A stretch of 64,000 nucleotides of DNA from Arenicola marina (Eukaryota > Annelida > Polychaeta > Arenicolidae). A program made the position numbers and the translations under genes. Below are positions 5,301-62,430 of this stretch, piece by piece (positions within the stretch are counted from its first letter, which is position 1; the number at the start of each line of letters is the position of its first letter). Below the pieces are notes generated by a model, which saw only the letters and a program-made list of their open reading frames with translations, ran no database searches and had not been told where the DNA came from. The DNA is taken from assembly GCA_964019135.1 (NCBI GenBank), contig OZ025260.1, positions 26,778,254-26,842,253 on the forward strand, in the 5' to 3' direction.

Positions 5301-6296
5301 AGGTTTAAGACCCTGGGACTGAGCGGGGATTTAAAGGTCTTTCCTTTGAAGTAAAGAAACTGCTCAGTTCGGTCTTTTCACCGCCTCACCGCCAACAGAT
5401 AATTACGCCTCTACCCACGTGTTGCCCCATGGCTCCGACCACCCAAACCACGGCTCATTTTTACCTGTTACCCTTTTTTGGTCAGCATCGCTTGCGTCAG
5501 ATCAAAAGAACCACATGGGCGCGGGGAGTGAGAGAGAGCGATAGAGACGGAGACAGAGAGAGAGGGAGAGAGGAGGCAGCGATGCTGAGAGAGGGAGTGT
5601 GGGGGGCGGGGGGGGGGAGGAGTGTGCGAAAAATCTTCGCATGTCTCGCCGCGACAGGATAAAGATTAAAGTGCCAGGACCTATGTCGACTGCGACCTAG
5701 CCGCAGCTCGCGATGCAGATATGTACTTGTATATTTACCAGACAATCCACTTAAAACCCAGGCCTGTCACATGCTGGTCTATGGTCAGCATGGTTTGCCC
5801 ATTCCTTGCCTGGTTTGCCTCGGGTTGTCCTCACCTTCCCCAGACGGTGAGGAAATTACCCTCAGACCGCCGCTGTTGAGATGATCGGTGACATTTATAA
5901 GAGGCTTTGTGCTGGGTTGAGTATGTGTTTTTGACCCTTAGTCGGGCCTAGAGGAGCTGTTGGGCTCCCTGTCTATTGGTCCCTGGGGTTGGCTGGCTTG
6001 ATTGACCCAAATATGGCCGCGATAAAGAGAGTGGGTGTATAGGGGGCAGTGGGGGCCAGGAGTGACGCCGAGGGCAGGACAGTGGGGTGGAGTGTAACTG
6101 AATGGGGCTGGGACGAGAGGCGTGCGGAGTTGGGGTGGAGATTTGAGGGGAGGAGGCCGTTGGGGTGAGGTGTGAGGCCACAATGGCTGGGTCAGGCGGA
6201 TTGGTCTTGGGAAAGATGGCATGTTGGTTACCATTTGGGGTGTGATTGTGCCGTATGGTGTCGCACATGGTAGCATGTGATATTTAATACTACCAT
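5301..6296. other. Intergenic sequence with no recognisable gene
   Basis: It contains a GA-rich purine tract at about 5525-5600 with a G run near 5606-5620, and little else. ORFs here are short and purine/pyrimidine-biased. No similarity to other parts of the window was seen. Confidence 0.5.
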
Positions 6297-6545: not shown

Positions 6546-6734
6546 CTTGGCCTGGCACAGGCGCTAATTTTGATATCGCAATGATGAGATAATGGGGTCG
6601 CCCAGCCGTGATGCCATTTGTCATGATTGCACTGGCCCAGTGATTATGTCAAATGTGGTGGTATATCCCTGATTGGTCCAGTGATGAAGTCATTTGTCAT
6701 GATTTTATCCCTGGCTGGCCCAGTAACCATGATA
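6546..6734. other. Spacer between SINE and tandem repeat
   Basis: It contains loosely repeated phrases (CTGGCCCAGT, GTCATGATT) that look like a decayed longer-period repeat leading into the 14-bp array. Confidence 0.4.
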
Positions 6735-6975
6735 TTGTCAGGATGGCGACGTCAACCACCATCGTCAAGATGGCGGCGTGTAGATGATAGTGTCAAGTTA
6801 GTGGCGTCGAGATGGGGGCGTCAAGATAATGGTGTTAAGATGGTGGCGTCAAGATAATGATGTCAAGTCGGTGGCGTCAAGATGGCGGCGTCAATGTGTC
6901 GGCGTCAAGATGTTGGGGTCAAAATCGTGTCGTCAAAATTTCGACGTCAAAACAGTGGTGTCAATATGTTGGAAT
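6735..6975 (+). repeat. 14-bp tandem repeat resembling YY1 sites
   Basis: About sixteen copies of a 14-base unit with consensus TCAAGATGGCGGCG. Two units are exact (6765-6778 and 6877-6890); the others differ at one to five positions, and one early unit is shifted by a base. The core AAGATGGCGGC equals the established YY1 consensus of animal promoters. Whether it binds anything here is unknown; see findings. Confidence 0.8.
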
Positions 6976-51314: not shown

Positions 51315-51761
51315 TTAGTGTTGCATAGAGTCTGATTGTGGTCTCCATTTCTTATGAAACATATCTGTACTAAAGTTCAGCTTCCTTTCTTCCGCACTAT
51401 TTTGGTGTCTATAGTAATGCTTTATATACTTTTTCACAGCCTGAAAAACTGGAACCGTGTTTGACCACTTGCAGCAATATATATATTTTTTAACAATTAA
51501 AGTCAAGTGATTAATAAGTTGGCTATGTGTTGACAAAACCACTCCAAGCATATTTGATATTAGTGTAAATAGGGTACATATGGTCTGGGCTGATGCGGCC
51601 GCGAGCCAACGTTCTAACTCCTGCCAAATGGGTCTCACATATGGGCATTCAAAGAGAAGGTGCTCAATTGTTTCTGACGAAACTGAGCTGAAAACGCTGA
51701 TCTCTGATGTAGCTAATTTAATTCTGTTTAAGAATCGATTTATTATTAAAGCTCTTTGCAA
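51315..51761 (-). pseudogene. LINE 1 ORF2 C-terminal region
   Basis: A frame of 148 codons holding the end of a LINE ORF2, including the half zinc-binding motif EHLLFEC before PIW, equivalent to the C-C-H-C reverse-transcriptase-associated zinc motif in the two plus-strand LINEs. The first cysteine pair is not clear. It is separated from the reverse transcriptase part by frameshifts. Confidence 0.75.
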
Positions 51762-52639
51762 AACTAAAAACTGGAAGCTCCAAGTCCTCTCGTCTAGAGT
51801 AGCTTTTGATGCTCTAGTATATATATCACATCATTTACTTTTATCAATTTCTACTCCTAACACCTCTAACCACTTATTTCATTTTTTTCATTATTCGTGG
51901 TATACTGCAAGGACTCCACCAAAATGTTGTAAACCTTATTACATAAGCGTGTTGACGTAGATATATAATTTTAAAAGGTTTGTGGCACATCTAGCAACTT
52001 ATGTCCCTTATTTAAACATTGGTCCCGCCATTCTTTTGGTATGGCATGCATTATTCCATAGAAGTCAACAAAGTTAATACTAATGCGATATTTATCTGTA
52101 AATTATTTCCAGCCTAATAGCGACCCTTCATTGTTCACAAGTTCTTTCATGTAAGTTACACCTTTCTCTATTAAATACTTTTTACTTCTTATTAGGTTTT
52201 ATTTTTCATAAAGTAAGTGTCCTAAAGCGGTCGTTCCAAAACATTCTCATTTGAACCATTGTACATGCTATTTTTGAGGTTTAGACACCCTCTGAAAAGG
52301 TTGCATATATTAACCAAATAACTTAGTGAATTCGTACCTAGCTCCCAAACGAGTGCACGTTCGCTGCAATTCATGCTGCAAAACAAATATTGCCACTCTC
52401 CACCATTCACAATAATGTTTCTGACCCATTACATTTTGACGGCATCTAAGAAGGATGGAATATGTGGCCGCTTTATACCTCAATTTTTTTCCTCTTGGAC
52501 TAGTTTCTTAAGGGAAACCTTGTTTGTTTTTTTTCCAGATAAAAGCCGGTATGGCATGATTCATCCGATCAATACAGTGTTGCCCTGGGTTTAGTAAGAC
52601 AGCCATGAGATGTATAAATCAGGGAAGGGCTAAAGTTTC

Positions 52640-53475
52640 AACTACGGTCGGCCTCTCACTGATATATTTCGTTTTCCGTATAAATTTACTGCACATTCAA
52701 ATGCAGTCAATTTGGGTTCATAGTTCAAACTTACAATAGTCTGAAGCTCGTTGCTAAACTTTATACCCAGTAATTGACATGCATTGACCCAAATTAAAGG
52801 CAAATCTAAAAAAAAAACCTTGGTGATTGGGCTACTGGGTCCCAATCAAAGGTCGTTCGTCTTCTCTATATTAATTTTTAATCCCGAACACACGTAAAAC
52901 AGTTTTACAAACTTCAAAGCATTTCTAAGGGACACATCTCTCCCATCTAATAGCAAAAAGTGTCGTCTGCATATTGACATATTTTATACTATTTTCCATC
53001 TATCTTGAAACGCTTAATTGTACAGTCGTTCTTAATGGCGTTGGCTAACGGGTCAATAGATAATAAAAAAGGGTATGACGACGGGGGATCTCCCTGTCCA
53101 CATCCTCGACAGAGGCGAAAGAAACTAGAAAAAACGCCATTGTTTATAACACAACGTTCAGAATTGTTATGCAGGGTATTGTACCAACGTCTAAATTTGC
53201 ATAAAATGCAATATATTTTTAACACATGATTTACGTAATTCCAACTAAGGGTGTCGAAAGCTTTTTCGAAGTCAATCAGGAGCCACATACCAGACTGTTT
53301 ATTTGCAATTGCATAGTGCATGATATCATAAATTAATCTAGTATTTTCTCCAATGTATCTTTCTTTTAGAAATCCTTTTTGTTCTGGGCTTATTAGGTGC
53401 CGAAGAACTTGTTTAATTCTGTTGGATAAAATGCCCGATAAAAATTTATAATCTGAGTTCAGCGAAGAGATTGGT
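52640..53475 (-). pseudogene. LINE 1 reverse transcriptase domain remnant
   Basis: From 53475 leftwards the frame carries the SSLNSDYKFLS, EQKGFL, LLIDFEKAFD and GCGQGDP segments of a non-LTR reverse transcriptase. A stop at about 52989 ends this frame; the catalytic YADD lies just beyond at 52962-52973, followed after a frameshift by CSGLKIN and then, at 52845-52642, the CQLLGIKF...GKRNIS thumb segment. The GDPPSS in place of GDPLSP shows decay. It is the same family as LINE 3. Confidence 0.85.
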
Positions 53476-54010
53476 CGCAAAACGATTATTCGGGGCACAT
53501 TCGTTGATCAGAATCTTCCCATTCACTGCTAAATTAGTCACATTAAGTATATTGAGAGATACTCATTCCCTTTCAAAACGTGAGGCATATGGGGATCTCT
53601 CAGTTAACGAGCGCTATCAGATTCTATTCGTGTTTTTGCGTAGTTCTAGTTTTGTAGTTTTGCTTACCTTTAAACGTTACATTATTAAAGCCTGCGTGGA
53701 TCAAAATTCACCATAAACACACTTATTCAGAGCAATTCAATACGCCTTAAACCTGTTGGCAATCGAGAGTCGTGCATTTTAATTAAATAACAATATACTT
53801 GTACTTTGCACTTTTTTTTCTTTATAAATCAATCGCGATCCTATAATTTTAATCAATACTCTCCCCTGGTGTTATCCGAATTCACTTCACGAGTCCCCCC
53901 AGGTCAGCGACAAGCGAAAGCAATATGAAAGAACATGTCAGCTCTAATTTGGTCCCCAGCGGCGTCCGACATCCCTCGAAGGTTGTTACTACCCGACCGT
54001 GGATCCCATC

Positions 54011-56160
54011 ATGAGGACAGAAATCCTCATGAGGACAAGGAACATACCAGGATTAATTCTCCTAATAGATTTTGAAAAAAGCCTTTGACTCTGTTGAATG
54101 GGCATATATTGACGAGACTCTTGCATCTTTTAATTTCGGTCATAGATTTAGGAACGCCGTGAAAACCCTTTATGGGGGAAGCTTAAGTTGCGTGATGAAT
54201 AATGGTTACACAACTGAATGGTTCCGCTTACAACGGAGTGTGAGGCAGGGGTGCCCGTTAGCGCCTTTCTTGTTTGTCTTAACAGTAGAACTCCTGGCTA
54301 TTGCGGTCCGACGAGATGACAGCATTAATCGTATTAAAGTAGACGAAAGACTAGTTAAACTATCACAGTTAGCGGATGACACCTCATCGTTCCTGGCTGA
54401 TGAAAAATCCGCAGAAAATCTTTTGAAAAAAATCAATGATTTCTCCAAAATATCAGGTTTAAAGTGCAATTTAGGGAAAACAGAAGCCATCTGGATTGGA
54501 TCTAATGCAAGCAACTGTCCCGGAACTTTAAAAGTCAAATGGTGTAAAACTCAGTGTTTCTCTACATTAGGAATAGTTTTCACTTTAGACGAATATGAGA
54601 TGGCAACTTTAAATTTAGGCTCAAAGCTTGAGTCTCTCAAAAAGTGTCTTAACCTCTGGAAAATGCGTGAATTAACTCTAATAGGTCGAATCTTAGTCTT
54701 GAAATCCCTGGTACTGTCGAAGCTAACATATATAGCAACGAACATGTATCTACCAACCCAAACAATAAATGAAATTCAGCGTGTAATAAATTCTTTCCTG
54801 TGGAAAAACTCAACACCTAAAGTTAAATTACAAGTTATGGCTCAGCCAATAAATGAAGGAGGCTTGAAAGCTCCTATCTATATTAACCAAGTTAAATCAC
54901 TCAGATTAAGTTTTATTAAGAGAATTTGCAATGATGAAAAGAAAGCATGGAAGGACTGCGCACAGACTTTCTTTCCATATATACTAATGAATGATTTATT
55001 TAACACCAGATGCGCGGTTCCTGCCTCGTTTTTAAATGATTTACCAATGTTTTATAAAGAACTTGTTCTCTTCTGGGCTGAGTTAAAGTCAAAGAAGGCC
55101 CCTGTTACAAAAAGCGAAATTTTATCCGAGTCGCTATGGTTTAATCCGTTTATTAAAATAAATGGCAATACAGTGTTTTATGAGCATTGGTACAGCAAAC
55201 GCGTCAAGACTATACATGACATCATTGGCGGTGATAATTTGCTGCTCTCAGATGACCAGTTAAGGTTGAGATATGGAGTACATTTCCACTTTTTAGAGTA
55301 CTATGGCCTGAGGTCAGCTATACCCCGCAGTTGGAAGATAACCCTCCAAGGTGGAGAAAGAATAGGCTCGATAAATCTGAATTGTGAAACAGAATACACA
55401 TGTAGAAGTATTTATTGGAAACTCACTCCGAAACCAATAACTATTATACAGCGCAATAAATGGATGGAAATGTTTAGTTTTTCAGAAAATGAATGGTCTA
55501 ATTACTGTTTATTACCTTTTAAAAATAGTTTCGAGACCAAATTACAGTCGTTTCAATTCTCTGTACTATATAGGTTTGTACCGTATAAGAGCAGGCTGCA
55601 TAAAATGGGATTGGTAGACAGCAATATCTGTGACTATTGCTCGGAAATCGACACCATAACACACAGATTTGTGCAATGCCCTGTGGTAAAACGTTTCTGG
55701 AATTGTTTTGTGCACTGGTGGGAAAATATAATTAATGACAGGATCGATCTGTCGGAAAAACGAATAATTCTAGGTGATGGGACGGACAATTATACATTAA
55801 ATAACTGCTTGCTGCTTGGAAAACATTTTATTCGTACACAGAAATGCAAGATCCAACCAATTAGCTTCCCTGGGTTTAAGGTAATCTTGCAGTACCATAT
55901 TCTTATGGAGAAACACATCCTACTAATGAGAGGGCAGTCAAATATGTTTCAAGAAAGATGGGGTGTCTTTTGTCAGCCTCCTTCATCTGAGTCCTAATTT
56001 ATCAAGCGCAAGTAAATGGTGTATGTGTCATGCTATGCTGTGTCAACTGTGTCAACTGTGCAACTACGTTCTGTAACAAAACTGTATTGGAGCAATATTG
56101 TATGACTATCATTTCAACGAAATAAAAAAAAAAAAAAAAAAAAATGAGGACAGAAATCCT
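54011..56160 (+). mobile_element. LINE 2: 5'-truncated L1/Tx1-like retrotransposon
   Basis: The insertion 54028-56143 is flanked by an exact 17-base target duplication, ATGAGGACAGAAATCCT (54011-54027 and 56144-56160). It ends in AATAAA running into a poly(A) of about 20. The empty site is at 17755-17775 and 37247-37262. The 5' end lies just before the FEKAFD segment, so only the second half of ORF2 was inserted. Exact duplications and a nearly open ORF show a fairly recent event. Confidence 0.95.
54029..55997 (+). pseudogene. LINE 2 ORF2 (reverse transcriptase, truncated, one frameshift)
   Basis: The reading enters at IPGLILLIDFEK and one extra A in the run at about 54075-54080 shifts it into the long frame 54072-55997, so the ATG at 54072 is not a real start. 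Seen in order: AFDSVEW, the RQGCPLAPFLF loop, the catalytic LADD (54369-54380; most relatives have YADD), SGLKCNLGKTEAIW, and near the end the zinc motif CDYC (55629-55640) with H and C following. The endonuclease and the first reverse transcriptase motifs were not inserted. It would copy LINE RNA at a nicked target if whole; here it is dead. Confidence 0.9.
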
Positions 56161-58299
56161 AGGCAAAGTAAAATTATAGGAAATAGCCAGGGAATAGTGC
56201 CCTGCATAATACCTATTTAATGACGGTTTTAACATGATGACTTTGAGCCCATAGAAGGACTGAGCTACAGCAGCACCCGGCTGATCACTCTTCGGCTATC
56301 TGGAATTGTCCAGTTTCATTCCAGTGAGCGTCCATGTAATCCCCGTTGACATCACTTTTATCCCAACCGCACATCTGACTTGGAAGCTATGAAATATACC
56401 CATACACGAGTTTTATTCTGATGTAGCATGGGCAAAACTAAGGCATGGTAAAACGTCGCAGATTAATATCACGTACAATTTGCTACATGGTAACATTGTA
56501 ATAATTTACGTCCAAGCTATCCATTATGTTGGAAAACAATTCGCCAGTTAATTTCTTATTTTTGTTGTTGTTCGAATCAACGAATGACCACCCTTCCCAA
56601 TTCGTGTGAGTGAATTAGAAAGTCCTTGGAGGTGAGGGTTTTGTTCATAAATAGCACGTCTACGACTGTTGTAAATTGCATAATGCTGTCATCTTGTAAT
56701 TTCTCCGTTGGATACCATCGGTACCGTTATAATACCACATATTATACCCATACTCCATCCTTTATAAGAAATGTTGGCGGTACAAACAGTTGATGTGCTA
56801 CTGAATGTTCAATTATTTAAGCTCCGTTTTTTTGTGTGTGGTACTTTTGTCGCCTATTGAGGATCTGGCCGGTACAAGAGACTCATCGATCATCTTGATA
56901 AGGAACCTTATCGGCCTGTCATCATGGGGAAAGCAGGACCCGAGGAGCGCCAGCGGTGGCTCCCTCTTGTGGCGAGAAGTGTCTTGATATAACGCGGTTA
57001 ACCAGCGTCAGTATTGCTCTTGCTCACCCTCCCCCCGCCGGCCTTCAGTGAATTATGTCACTTTCCCCCATGAAAGAGAGTGTAACGCACAGGAAACAAA
57101 TTTGAGATCAATTGTGAGATCAAGTGCCACTGCTTGTGCGTCTTCATTAGATAGTCCTGGCGAGGGTCTATATTCTGCATAATTCTGCGTAAACAGATGG
57201 TACCCGGAAAGCAGACCGGTAAATGCGCGAGGGCCATCAAACTATGAGGTTTAATGACATTGGGCAACGAGCCTTCATGCAAATAGTAATAACAGAAAGA
57301 AATATTGTAACGAACAGGGATCAAAAGCTTCTGAAACCAAACACTTGTTTTTCTGGATCTCGCGTTCATTTAGATTATTTTCGGCGTGATTATCGATCAA
57401 TAATCCATTATTCTACCGCAGACAGCTGCAAATGCGAGTCTCTAATAATAAGGACGATAACGGAATGATGGGGGGCGTACTAGAGACATGGTTCCCCATT
57501 AAGCGAACCAGAAAGCTGAGCACAAAATCAACAGTTGGTATTGGACTAATACACTATTGGCCGATATGAAGTCAACAGAATCGTAATGGGGCTTGCTGGT
57601 AACTGTTATCTCACTTCCTGCCGCAGGATGTGTTTCTGAGACGCCTTTGGATAAACCATAGTCAATTACTGGTGCTGTACTTAGCCAGGGGGGGGGGGGG
57701 CACTAGCAATGACAAATGATCCAATTCAATGGCTGCTGTAAGTGCCCGGTCCGTGCTGGCCTAACGAGACATGGGAGTTCCTGAAAACAGGGAAATACGG
57801 CCGGCTGTCAGGAAGGCAGCCATATATTACAGAATCCATTGGTGCTATTGCTGCCGAAGATCGGCCTGCGGCCATGACCTTTACGGCTCGCTGTTTTGGC
57901 TAGGATGAAGCTCTATGTAGATTGAAAGCCCATCCGCCATCCCAATTGGGTCGGCCTTAATGGCCATCGTACCCTTAGGTAATTTCTATTAGTCGAGAAC
58001 TTTGAAGTATGGGGCGTAAGTGAATCTCTGGAAGAAATAGGCAACGGAACGGGACCCCTTGATACATGTCGGGTGATTTGTTGTTGACCAATCAGAAAAT
58101 CTAATATTGGGAGCTTAGTGTGTGTGCAACATTTATTCAGCGTCTTGCGGCAGGACCGGCTGCATCGTTGTTAGATCTGCAGCTCAATGTCGGGAGTTAA
58201 TCTCCCAGACTGCACGTGGCGCGTACTATTGATACGCGATGGTCTGGTCTCAAGTCCAGCTACGGATAACGCACGATATTGAGCTTCAGTTCTAACGAG

Positions 58300-58400
58300 A
58301 GTGTAAAATAACTGTAAACCAATGTTTTCAGGCGATTTACTCACCAATATTTTCTCAGGAGATTTACTAACCATTATGTTTTCAGGTAATTTACTTCCGT
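58300..58400 (+). repeat. Short tandem repeat at the LINE 3 target
   Basis: Three decayed copies of a roughly 33-base phrase containing TTTTCAGG and ATTTACT. The LINE inserted at its right edge. Confidence 0.6.
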
Positions 58401-61400
58401 TTCTGGAAGCTCAATGTGTCACTTCTGCGAGATAAAGAATATGTGAACTGTATGAAGAAGGTTATAAAAGAAAACATTGAGCGTTACATACTCGAGGGAG
58501 AAGATATAAATGACCCGGAGGCGAAATTTGTGGTCAACGATGCACTATTCTTTAATGTACTGAAGACGGAGATAAGAGGGAAAAGTATATCTTTTGCGTC
58601 ATACAAAAAACGACAAGCACAGAAAGTGGAGATAGACTTAGAAAAGGAAATACAAGAACTTGAGAAAGAGGTAGACAGTGCAAATGTGTTAACTGATAGA
58701 GAGAAGCTACAGGAAAAAAGAGACCTGCTGAATGTACTTAGAGGTGAAAAAACAAAAGGTGCAATGGTGAGAGCCAAAGTGCGAATCTATGAAGAGGGTG
58801 AGAAGCCCAGTAAATTTTTCTGCGGGTTAGAAAAACGAAATTATGTGAGTAAACTAATAACGAAAATCGTGTCAAACGGTGAAGAAATTACAGGTGGACC
58901 GGCTATTTTGAGAGAACAAACATTATTCTATAGAAACTTATACACGTCAGTAAACAAAAGTGGCGAATCGATTGGTGCCTTCTTAGCAAGAGATGTTGTC
59001 AAGCCGCTAAGTGACGAGAGTCAAGAATACTGTGACAGTACTATAACTGTTAACGAAGTTAAACAGGTGTTAAGAAATATGAAGAATGAAAAGTCGCCAG
59101 GGTCAGACGGCTTCCCTGCTGAATTTTACAAATTTTTTTGGCAAGATATAGGCCACTTTTTGTTAAGAAGCCTGCAACACGGCATTACGCATGGAAAACT
59201 CTCAGTAACTCAGCGTCAAGGTATTATCACCTGTTTACCTAAGCCGGGACAACCAAGAGAGTTGTTGAAGAACTGGAGGCCTATTTCCTTAATAAACGCC
59301 GACTATAAGGTGTTATCCGGAGTTCTGGCAAATCGGTTAAAAAAGGTGCTCGCAGATATTATCCATACGGAACAAAAAGGGTTTCTTAAGGGTCGTTTCA
59401 TCGGAGAGCACACTAGACTGGTCTATGACGTTATCGACTACCTGAATAAGAATAACAAGCCAGGACTACTACTATTAATAGATTTCGAAAAAGCTTTTGA
59501 TACCGTAGAATGGAGCTATATCATAAAGACTATGAAGGCGTATAACATCGGAGATCGATTTGTGGAATATTTCAAAACCTTATATTGTGAAGCAGAAAGT
59601 TGCGTTATAAATAATGGACATTTGTCTCCCTTCTTCAAACTGGGCCGCGGTTGTCGCCAAGGTGACCCCCTTTCGCCATATTTGTTTATCCTTGCAGTAG
59701 AGCCACTAGCGGAAACGATACGACAAAACCCCGATATACATGGTATAGAAATTGGGTCAATCTCTGTTCTCCTTGGTCAATATGCAGATGACACCTTTCT
59801 GTTAATGAAACAGGACGAAAAGTCACTGGCTGCTGCGCTAAAAACGTTTAGGTTATTCTATCTGTGTTCAGGACTCAGAATAAATCTAGACAAAACGCAG
59901 GCGGTGTGGTTGGGTAGCATGCGAAACTCAGATAATTGTTTATGCCCAGAATACCCTATAAAATGGGTAAAGGAATTTAAACTATTGGGAATTCAATTCG
60001 GGGCGGAAACGACAAACCTGCTGGAAAATAACATCGACGAAAAACTTCACGCTATAACCAGAACATTAACATTCTATAAATCAAAGAGACTTTCTATCAT
60101 GGGAAAAGCTGCAGTGGTTGAAAGCCTGGTTGTGCCTAAATTAATTCATGTACTGTCAGTGATTCCGGCCAAGACTACCTTTCTTGACAAGATTCAAAAG
60201 TCAATAAACAATTTCATTTGGGATGGAAAGAGAGCTAAGGTATCCCACTCACAACTGGTGCAAAGATATGAAAATGGGGGTATACAACTTACAGACGTCA
60301 AGACACTGAGCGAAGCGCTACAGGTGACATGGATTAAAAGACTTGAATCCTCTGAAGGAAATTGGCAGCGTTTAGCCAAGTATCTGTTGGGTATGGAGAA
60401 TGATATTCTGCTATGGAGTTTAGATCCAAAGTCAGTGACCACACTGGCTAGAGGTATAAATAATGTATTTTGGAGAAACGTGTTGTTAGTGTGGCAAAAA
60501 TACCGAACCGCCGTAGACCCCACGGATATGTGGTTCAAATATACTTTCTGGAATTCAAGTTATGTTACAAATAAGAATGTACTTACTTATAAAAAGCCAC
60601 TGGTTAGAAAAGATTGCGTTTTGGTAATGGATCTACTGGATGAAAATGGGGCTCCGTTAACGTTTGAGGCATTTGTATCAAAGTATAATGTATCTATGAA
60701 TGTGCTCGATTTCCTCTCACTTAGATATCAAGTGTGTGAACGATGGCGCGAGGTCGGGCTTGGTATACTGCAAATACCTTCCCGCAAAACGGACGAACTT
60801 CTTGTAGAAATTCTCGAGACCTCACATTGTTGCAATTTTGTCTACTGGACCCTCATAAGCGTTGCAAAGTCGGTTCAGCAAAGACTACGCAAATGGGAGG
60901 AATCACTAGCCAAAAGTTTGGATAAGTTGGAATGGAAAAATATATATCAAATAGCCTTTCGAACTACTCTTGACAGTCGCATTAGAAGCTTCAATATAAA
61001 CTACTGCAGCGTGTACTACCTACAAATAAATTCTTAAAGTTATGTAACATTGTGCCATGTGACCTTTGCACCTTCTGTAAAGAACAAATAGAGACTGTCG
61101 AACATTTGTTTTGGGACTGCCATATGGTACAAGCATTTTGGCAAAGTCTACAAAATCGCTTAAGTTTATACATCGACATGAGTCCGTTTTTAAATAAGAT
61201 AAATGTTTTCCTAGGTAGTTACGAAGAGCACAATGGGCTTATAAATCATATCTACCTTATCGCCAAACATTGTATTTTTATCTCTAAATGTAAAAGCAGC
61301 CTACCGTCAGTTGAAATGTTTATGAACAGGTTAAAAGCAGTATAGGTGATAGAAAACGAGATAGAAAAGAGAAAATTAGAGCCGACGAGTGATCAATTTA

Positions 61401-61441
61401 TGAGCAAATGGGGCAACTTAAGAAAAATGCTACTTAAATGA
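58401..61441 (+). pseudogene. LINE 3 ORF2 (nearly intact from after the endonuclease, one frameshift, one stop)
   Basis: The frame is open from the first base after the target duplication (FWKLN), so the GTG at 58416 is no start; the endonuclease domain was lost by 5' truncation. Seen in order: a charged coiled-coil-like stretch (codons 70-110), SKFFCGLEKRN, KSPGSDGFPAEFY, NWRPISLIN, EQKGFLKGR, LLIDFEKAFD, GCRQGDPLSPY, the catalytic YADD (59781-59792), LLGIQF and a thumb. About 870 codons in, a single-base loss near 60991 shifts the frame and gives a stop at 61037; the other frame carries LQRVLPTNKFL and the zinc motif CTFC...H...C to 61345, where TAG replaces the TAT of the second copy. The original stop is at 61439-61441. 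It acts, when whole, as the reverse transcriptase of an L1/Tx1-type element. Confidence 0.92.
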
Positions 61442-61551
61442 TGAAATGGATGTGTAAACTTGCTTAACGTGCTTTTGTCACTATTATGTATGCCGTATAC
61501 ACCATTGTAATGTTTCATTGGGTTAAATCCGAAAAAAAAAAAAAAAAAAAA

Positions 61552-61957
61552 GGAATGCGGTTTTTTCGATGTCTTTCTCCTCCATCGGGATCTGATTAAA
61601 ACCATGGGCCAGATCCAAGCTGCAGAAGTATTTCGCCCCTTTCAGCGCATCTAGAGCTTCATCAATTCTTGGAAGAGGATACGCGTCGTTGTGAGTTTTG
61701 GCGTTCAACGCACGATAATCCACACACAATCGGAGCTTGCCATCTTGCTTACGTACCGAAACCACTGGGGACGCGAACGGGCTGCTCGATTCGCAGATGA
61801 TACCTTGTTCCAGAGACTTTTGCAGATATTCCCTGACTTCACCCCATTGGTGGGGAGGCACTCGTCTGTGGGGAACCTTCACTGGGATAGGATCGGTCAC
61901 AGTGATGCTGTGCTTGATTAGGTTGCAGTCACCGATGTCACTGTCGGACGTAGACAT
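61552..61957 (-). pseudogene. Ty3/gypsy pol fragment (N-terminal reverse transcriptase)
   Basis: The minus strand encodes about 135 codons of a gypsy polyprotein. Recognisable are the VPPHQWGEVREYLQ linker, the SPFASPVVSVRKQDGKLR strand, LCVDYRALN, YPLPRIDEAL and the SLDLAHGFNQIPM segment, then IEKTAF at the break. The catalytic YxDD lies further on and is missing. The frame is uninterrupted, so the piece is young. It is antisense to the surrounding LINE and its left end abuts the LINE poly(A) run exactly. Confidence 0.92.
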
Positions 61958-62240
61958 TTATCTCTAAATGTAAAAGCAGCCTACCGTCAGTTGAAATGTT
62001 TATGAACAGGTTAAAAGCAGTATATGTGATAGAAAACGAGATAGAAAAGAGAAAATTAGAGCCGACGAGTGATCAATTTATGAGCAAATGGGGCAACTTA
62101 AGAAAAATGCTACTTAAATGATGAAATGGATGTGTAAACTTGCTTAACGTGCTTTTGTCACTATTATGTATGCCGTATACACCATTGTAATGTTTCATTG
62201 GGCTAAATAAAAAAAAAAAAAAAAAAAAATTTACTTCCGT

Positions 62241-62430
62241 GAAAAATCTGCAAGCATGGCTGACTGTCTGGAAGACAGCCATGTATTACAGAATCCATCA
62301 GTACTATTGTCGCCCCAGTGGGTCACTGTAAGTTATGGTAATATTTATTAGACAAGGGGGTGGATTTGTTAGAGATCAATAGATGAAGGTCCCTGCAAGC
62401 AGGGACGGTAAGTTTAAAAGATGTGTTTGA
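62241..62430 (+). repeat. Diverged tail of block Z after LINE 3
   Basis: The phrases GAAGACAGCCATGTATTACAG and TAATATTTATTAGACAAGG match block Z at 57800-57840 and 20041-20225. This copy is more diverged and deleted than the others, and nothing similar to T or U follows closely. Confidence 0.6.

Follow-up and report, generated by a model that had tools for sequence, protein, structure and literature searches.

The closest described systems are chimeric insertions found in a fungus, in the mouse and in the human lineage. According to PMC2104539, Magnaporthe grisea carries a tripartite chimera (WEIRD/Mg-SINE/MGL) with a 14-bp duplication, and two tripartite chimeras (B2/U6/L1) occur in the mouse, for which double template switches were proposed; the duplications are 14-16 bp overall. 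In the human lineage LINE-1 forms chimeras with small RNAs, Alu and mRNA fragments, including 452 Alu/LINE-1 chimeras, and the catalogue of these chimeras attributes their antisense pieces to twin priming (PMC13174262). Template jumping at LINE 5' ends was described in PMC2912911. For the R2 reverse transcriptase, PMC8857657 reports that a non-templated addition, best of 1-2 bases, is needed before a jump.

Here we describe a composite insertion in the 867-Mb genome of Arenicola marina, found in a 64,000-bp stretch (C13:26778254-26842253) that will be called the window; coordinates below are window positions. An exact 13-bp repeat, AATTTACTTCCGT, is present at 58388-58400 and 62228-62240 (spacing 3840), the first copy at the 5' limit of a LINE, whose match starts at 58399, the second at the end of a second poly(A). 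Within this one duplication LINE1, CCG, A20, an antisense gypsy fragment, CA, LINE2 and A19 follow each other in this order:

58322..58395, no strand: 27-bp minisatellite, 2.7 units, at the left target edge; its last unit enters the 5' target duplication
58388..58400, no strand: 5' target-site duplication AATTTACTTCCGT (repeat listing); the join bases GT are common to the LINE (2 shared bases)
58401..61528, plus strand: LINE1, a 5'-truncated copy of a two-ORF L1-like LINE with RT and zf-RVT domains
61529..61531, plus strand: CCG, at the boundary of LINE body and poly(A)
61532..61551, plus strand: first poly(A), 20 A (direct reading)
61552..61954, minus strand: gypsy reverse-transcriptase fragment, 403 bp, antisense to the LINE
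61955..61956, plus strand: CA, two bases matching neither neighbour in the compared copies, a possible non-templated addition
61957..62208, plus strand: LINE2, 252 bases of LINE 3' end, from a further copy or RNA of the LINE1 family
62209..62227, plus strand: second poly(A), of which 19 A lie outside the target duplication (A21 at 62209-62229 if two duplication bases are included)
62228..62240, no strand: 3' target-site duplication AATTTACTTCCGT (repeat listing)

The locus is like the M. grisea and mouse chimeras in that three pieces, presumably copied from RNA templates, lie within one target duplication with a truncated LINE at the 3' side. The pieces of those chimeras are described in PMC2104539 as having the same sense, with a non-LINE RNA as the 5' piece. 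Here, by contrast, an LTR-retrotransposon fragment in antisense occupies the middle, and another LINE copy, ending in a poly(A) of its own, takes the 5' place. Tripartite LINE chimeras are already published, and this locus adds another of that sort. The human-lineage LINE-1 chimeras also have an extra RNA piece 5' of the LINE inside one duplication, and antisense pieces occur among them; in the accessible text of that catalogue (PMC13174262) the extra piece is nowhere enclosed between two LINE parts, and the word "tripartite" is absent from its main text. No LINE-gypsy-LINE order was found among the listed papers on gypsy/LINE chimeras, as judged from titles and abstract openings. PMC6500023, which concerns an engineered L1/MaLR-LTR insert in the mouse, and PMC3415434 were set aside.

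The sequence-only reading had stated that a single 13-base duplication brackets the whole composite, and the exact repeat at both outer ends bears this out. Its further statement, that the first poly(A) and the gypsy piece lack a duplication of their own, held with one qualification: the flanks of LINE1 alone, gypsy alone or LINE2 alone share at most 5 bases, but if gypsy and LINE2 are taken as a single unit, the flanks of this unit share an A-run (20 A) and nothing else. One visible duplication is therefore not proof of one event, because insertion into an A-run would produce a duplication made up of A alone.

The LINE belongs to a young, two-ORF, L1-like family. One sister copy, L016, has an ORF1 of 440 aa and an ORF2 of 1261 aa, the latter with endonuclease (PF03372), reverse transcriptase (PF00078) and zf-RVT (PF13966) domains and with human LINE-1 ORF2p (8sxt, E 4.5e-115) as its best solved relative. 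Two ORFs and an ORF2 with AP endonuclease, RT and C-terminal zinc domain are the features of the L1-like (APE-endonuclease) class, and among the sisters there are also poly(A) tails, short target duplications and frequent 5' truncation. ORF1 of L016 (732-2054) matches PF01205 (UPF0029) over residues 324-432 (E 2e-12); a literature search found no paper joining UPF0029, retrotransposon and ORF1.

The comparisons were made with 26 sisters, 20 with long flanks (L013-L032) and six with short flanks (L043-L048). This set comprises all 22 matches of at least 98% to the query spanning the gypsy/LINE2 join (join 2), the window excepted, and four short ends obtained with the query for the join of LINE1 poly(A) and gypsy (join 1); nine older copies (90-94%) from the join-2 query were left out. 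A target duplication was obtained for 19 of the 26. None was convincing in L013, L031, L046 and L047, and the short-flank copies L043, L044 and L048, for which the 5' side was not included, stand outside the duplication counts. L017 and L030 were excluded, their targets being tandem repeats, and the remaining 17 sisters form the measured set: their exact duplications are 8-21 bp long, their tails have 16-36 bases, and the 5' join has at least one A in 16 of them, the exception being L027. In L043, which is not among the 17, the A-run is only 8 long and is followed by a TA stretch. The tails of L044 and L047 consist of two A-runs, 9 and 12 bases apart, and are probably short 3' transductions, so read-through may well occur in this LINE family.

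LINE1 lacks about 2.7 kb of the 5.8-kb element at the 5' side, and with it the endonuclease part. Its ORF2 frame is broken near 60990 by a change absent from 19 sisters; the other 7 do not reach this position. The 3' ends of LINE1 and LINE2 are 98% matched over 273 aligned bases, A-run included; two sites among the 252 LINE bases, plus the CCG, set them apart. Differences that are private with respect to the sisters number 19 in 3,128 columns for LINE1 and 1 in 252 for LINE2, LINE1 having 1 in the same 252 columns; no private site is common to both 3' ends. The CCG removes from LINE1 the AATAAA that most copies have at that place and that is retained in LINE2. With up to 1 mismatch allowed, the genome contains a single LINE end of this form, and only one of the 26 sisters (L023) lacks AATAAA there. 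Splicing was considered as the source of the second join and rejected, there being no AG immediately before LINE2.

The gypsy frame is open across the whole piece, as the sequence-only reading had noted, and its translation matches PF00078 (E 3.6e-11). Of three genomic gypsy copies compared, L002 and L003 are 96.8% identical to the piece over 403 bases and continue alike as gypsy on both sides of it; L007 is 97.8% identical over 356 bases, lacks about 30 bases near one end of the piece and then continues alike. No LINE sequence was found in the 1.5-kb flanks of these three copies. At the LINE1 join, the preceding gypsy base is C in all of them.

The open frame and the near identity of the two LINE ends had been read earlier as signs of recency. 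The insertion does appear to be recent, given the few private differences of LINE1 and LINE2, but joint arrival of the parts does not follow from these differences. Nor can the join be dated from how closely the two ends agree, sisters over long stretches being only about 1-2% different (one is at 96.3%).

A single target-primed insertion by the L1-like LINE, with two template jumps, is in our judgement the best explanation, although we would grant it no more than even credence; the standing given to this and to all other readings is a matter of judgement and was not computed. The enzyme would nick the site and prime on a LINE RNA's poly(A), copying 252 bases (LINE2). It would then jump, with two extra bases, onto an RNA with antisense gypsy sequence, of which 403 bases would be copied, and a second jump, to the 3' poly(A) of a further LINE RNA, would yield 3.1 kb more (LINE1). 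The 5' end would finally be attached to the target via 2 bp of microhomology. Several features agree with such a course. The one perfect duplication lies precisely at the outer ends, with nothing but A-run repeated inside, and among the candidates scored neither inner join recurred elsewhere; tripartite chimeras with 14-16 bp duplications offer a precedent (PMC2104539). Both A-runs (20 and 19) are inside the tail range of the sisters (16-36, n=17), which counts for one event, and LINE1 starts from its 3' poly(A), in keeping with an acceptor RNA that was entered at its end. There are two extra bases at the second join and none at the first, which can be compared with the addition of 1-2 bases before R2 jumps. 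The likeness to R2 jumping would lie in a continuous cDNA made over separate templates, with 1-2 non-templated bases as a help; the enzyme studied in PMC8857657 was R2 of Bombyx mori, in vitro, and not that of an L1-like LINE. The origin of LINE1 and LINE2 from one small family would follow naturally if the enzyme holds its own RNAs.

Other features speak against two jumps. Since pieces joined by template jumping share one transcriptional sense, this reading has to postulate an antisense gypsy RNA: the piece runs antisense to the gypsy coding strand and fits only if an antisense transcript was the template. Twin priming within one event was rejected as a way around this, since it would not put a sense LINE upstream. 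The broken AATAAA, seen in its CCG form only here, is a coincidence under jumping and expected under read-through. Nothing seen at this one locus demonstrates that the three pieces came simultaneously.

The more specific reading is that two of the enzyme's own LINE RNAs were placed head-to-tail with an antisense LTR-retrotransposon RNA between them, by end-to-end, poly(A)-directed template jumping in vivo; we propose it tentatively, with doubt somewhat outweighing belief. If it is true, one nick could take up several poly(A) RNAs. If the composite is one event, it would be an in vivo case in which a LINE reverse transcriptase moved to the poly(A) end of a second RNA from its own family and picked up an LTR-retrotransposon RNA on the way, and it would extend the double-jump chimeras of fungus and mouse (PMC2104539) to another genome and to the LINE-LTR-LINE order. 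Being a single locus, it leaves the general view of LINE biology unchanged. The sisters with an available 5' side yielded no second convincing jump chimera. L020 is a candidate 5' chimera: a piece of about 142 bases (510-650) lies between its target duplication and the LINE, with the duplication within AT repeats; the piece has no match in Rfam at E up to 1.

Among the alternatives, insertion in two steps survives best, though we consider it unlikely. LINE1 would have come first, making the 13-bp duplication, and later a short LINE insertion with gypsy at its 5' end would have entered the LINE1 poly(A), its all-A duplication remaining invisible. The antisense gypsy would be owed either to twin priming, with a sense gypsy mRNA as template, or to a jump. 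This model accounts for the one visible duplication and for the A-run on both sides of the gypsy and LINE2 unit, and with twin priming, as described for LINE-1 in PMC13174262, ordinary sense gypsy RNA suffices for the antisense piece. The lengths of the A-runs are evidence against it, though not proof: the 19 A must hold both the second tail and the all-A duplication, and with the shortest duplication seen, 8 bp, at most 11 bases are left for a tail, compared with 16-36 in the sisters (n=17). Shrinkage of the tail or an insertion without duplication could rescue the model, and an A-run of only 8 does exist in L043. It also seems very unlikely to us that the same small family should by chance strike a target of 20 bases.

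Read-through of a source LINE (3' transduction) appears quite improbable. Here a LINE with a broken poly(A) signal would have been located upstream of an antisense gypsy fragment and a second LINE 3' end, and the long read-through RNA would have been retrotransposed. The CCG that removes AATAAA from LINE1 and the intact AATAAA of LINE2, which would be used as the read-through end, are what this model predicts; the tails of L044 and L047 resemble short read-through, and the gypsy piece may have any orientation. The model needs a source locus, and the assembly was searched for it with a 161-base query (join 1) and a 191-base query (join 2), skipping simple repeats and very common words. No match outside the window crossed either join by more than 4 bases among the candidates scored (40 of 51 for join 1, 40 of 52 for join 2), and none of these combined a source LINE with the same downstream sequence. 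The exact join-1 pattern occurred once; at 3 mismatches there were 7 other places, as against 12 for a reversed control. The genome search for a source locus suggested by the sequence-only reading thus found none among the candidates scored, a result that leaves room for a source missed by the scoring or absent from the assembly. Besides, an earlier insertion of LINE1 into gypsy should show an A in the gypsy sequence just before the join, as in 16 of the 17 measured sister insertions, and the base there is C in all three gypsy copies; a source made by LINE insertion into gypsy was rejected on this ground. Two same-family LINE insertions into one gypsy copy, about 400 bp apart, would also be needed, followed by loss of the locus or its absence from the assembly. 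The sequence-only reading had offered template switching and read-through as two mechanisms that fit. We favour template switching, because no source was found, the gypsy copies continue as gypsy, and the join has C where sister insertions have A; insertion of a gypsy/LINE chimera into the LINE1 poly(A), a third mechanism, had been left out of that account.

A patch made at the DNA level seems very unlikely. LINE1 would have broken in its poly(A) or 3' end and been mended with gypsy and a LINE 3' end copied from elsewhere or from the sister chromatid, by replicative template switching or end-joining. Such repair leaves one duplication and any orientation of gypsy, and, reasoning from the anatomy, LINE homology would account for the same family appearing twice. 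It would have required several choices of repair template ending at poly(A) ends, and the two 252-base ends have no private variant in common (one each, plus the CCG), which makes a late duplication unlikely, though the numbers are small. Erroneous joining of separate LINE and gypsy copies in the assembly is scarcely credible: both joins do lie between repeated sequences, but a perfect outer duplication and differing private variants of the LINE ends are not expected from a misjoin.

The surroundings of the insertion are repetitive. Paralogs of the right flank (L035, L036, L041 and L042, on C13) are uninterrupted at the corresponding site and lack the insertion. They were rejected as an empty site: the left flank resembles other repeats (L038-L040), and no single paralog has both flanks joined. 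Among 5 matches to the left flank there was no second copy of the locus. Related repeat units flank the insertion at 57799-57850 and 62258-62309 (84.6% over 52 bases), and their relatives at about 26.80-27.02 Mb of C13 form a local repeat cluster. Another LINE reverse-transcriptase ORF, to which this LINE family has no match at the DNA level, is present in the window at 54069-55994, and near it, at 51318-53507, are reverse-strand RT and zf-RVT pieces.

Some sisters have peculiarities of their own. The target duplication of L025 is about 165 bp long (about 2604-2768 and 6605-6769, 98.7% identity over 152), and that of L027 about 60 bp, both lengthened by imperfect extension; the L025 duplication greatly exceeds the usual length. 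L024 contains, at 996-1229 in LINE orientation, an extra inverted ORF2 segment of 234 bases where about 70 bases of the LINE 5' part are missing. L013 carries a MITE-like insert of 218 bases (5721-5938) with the inverted ends CTGGGCTCGCG and CGCGAGCCCAG.
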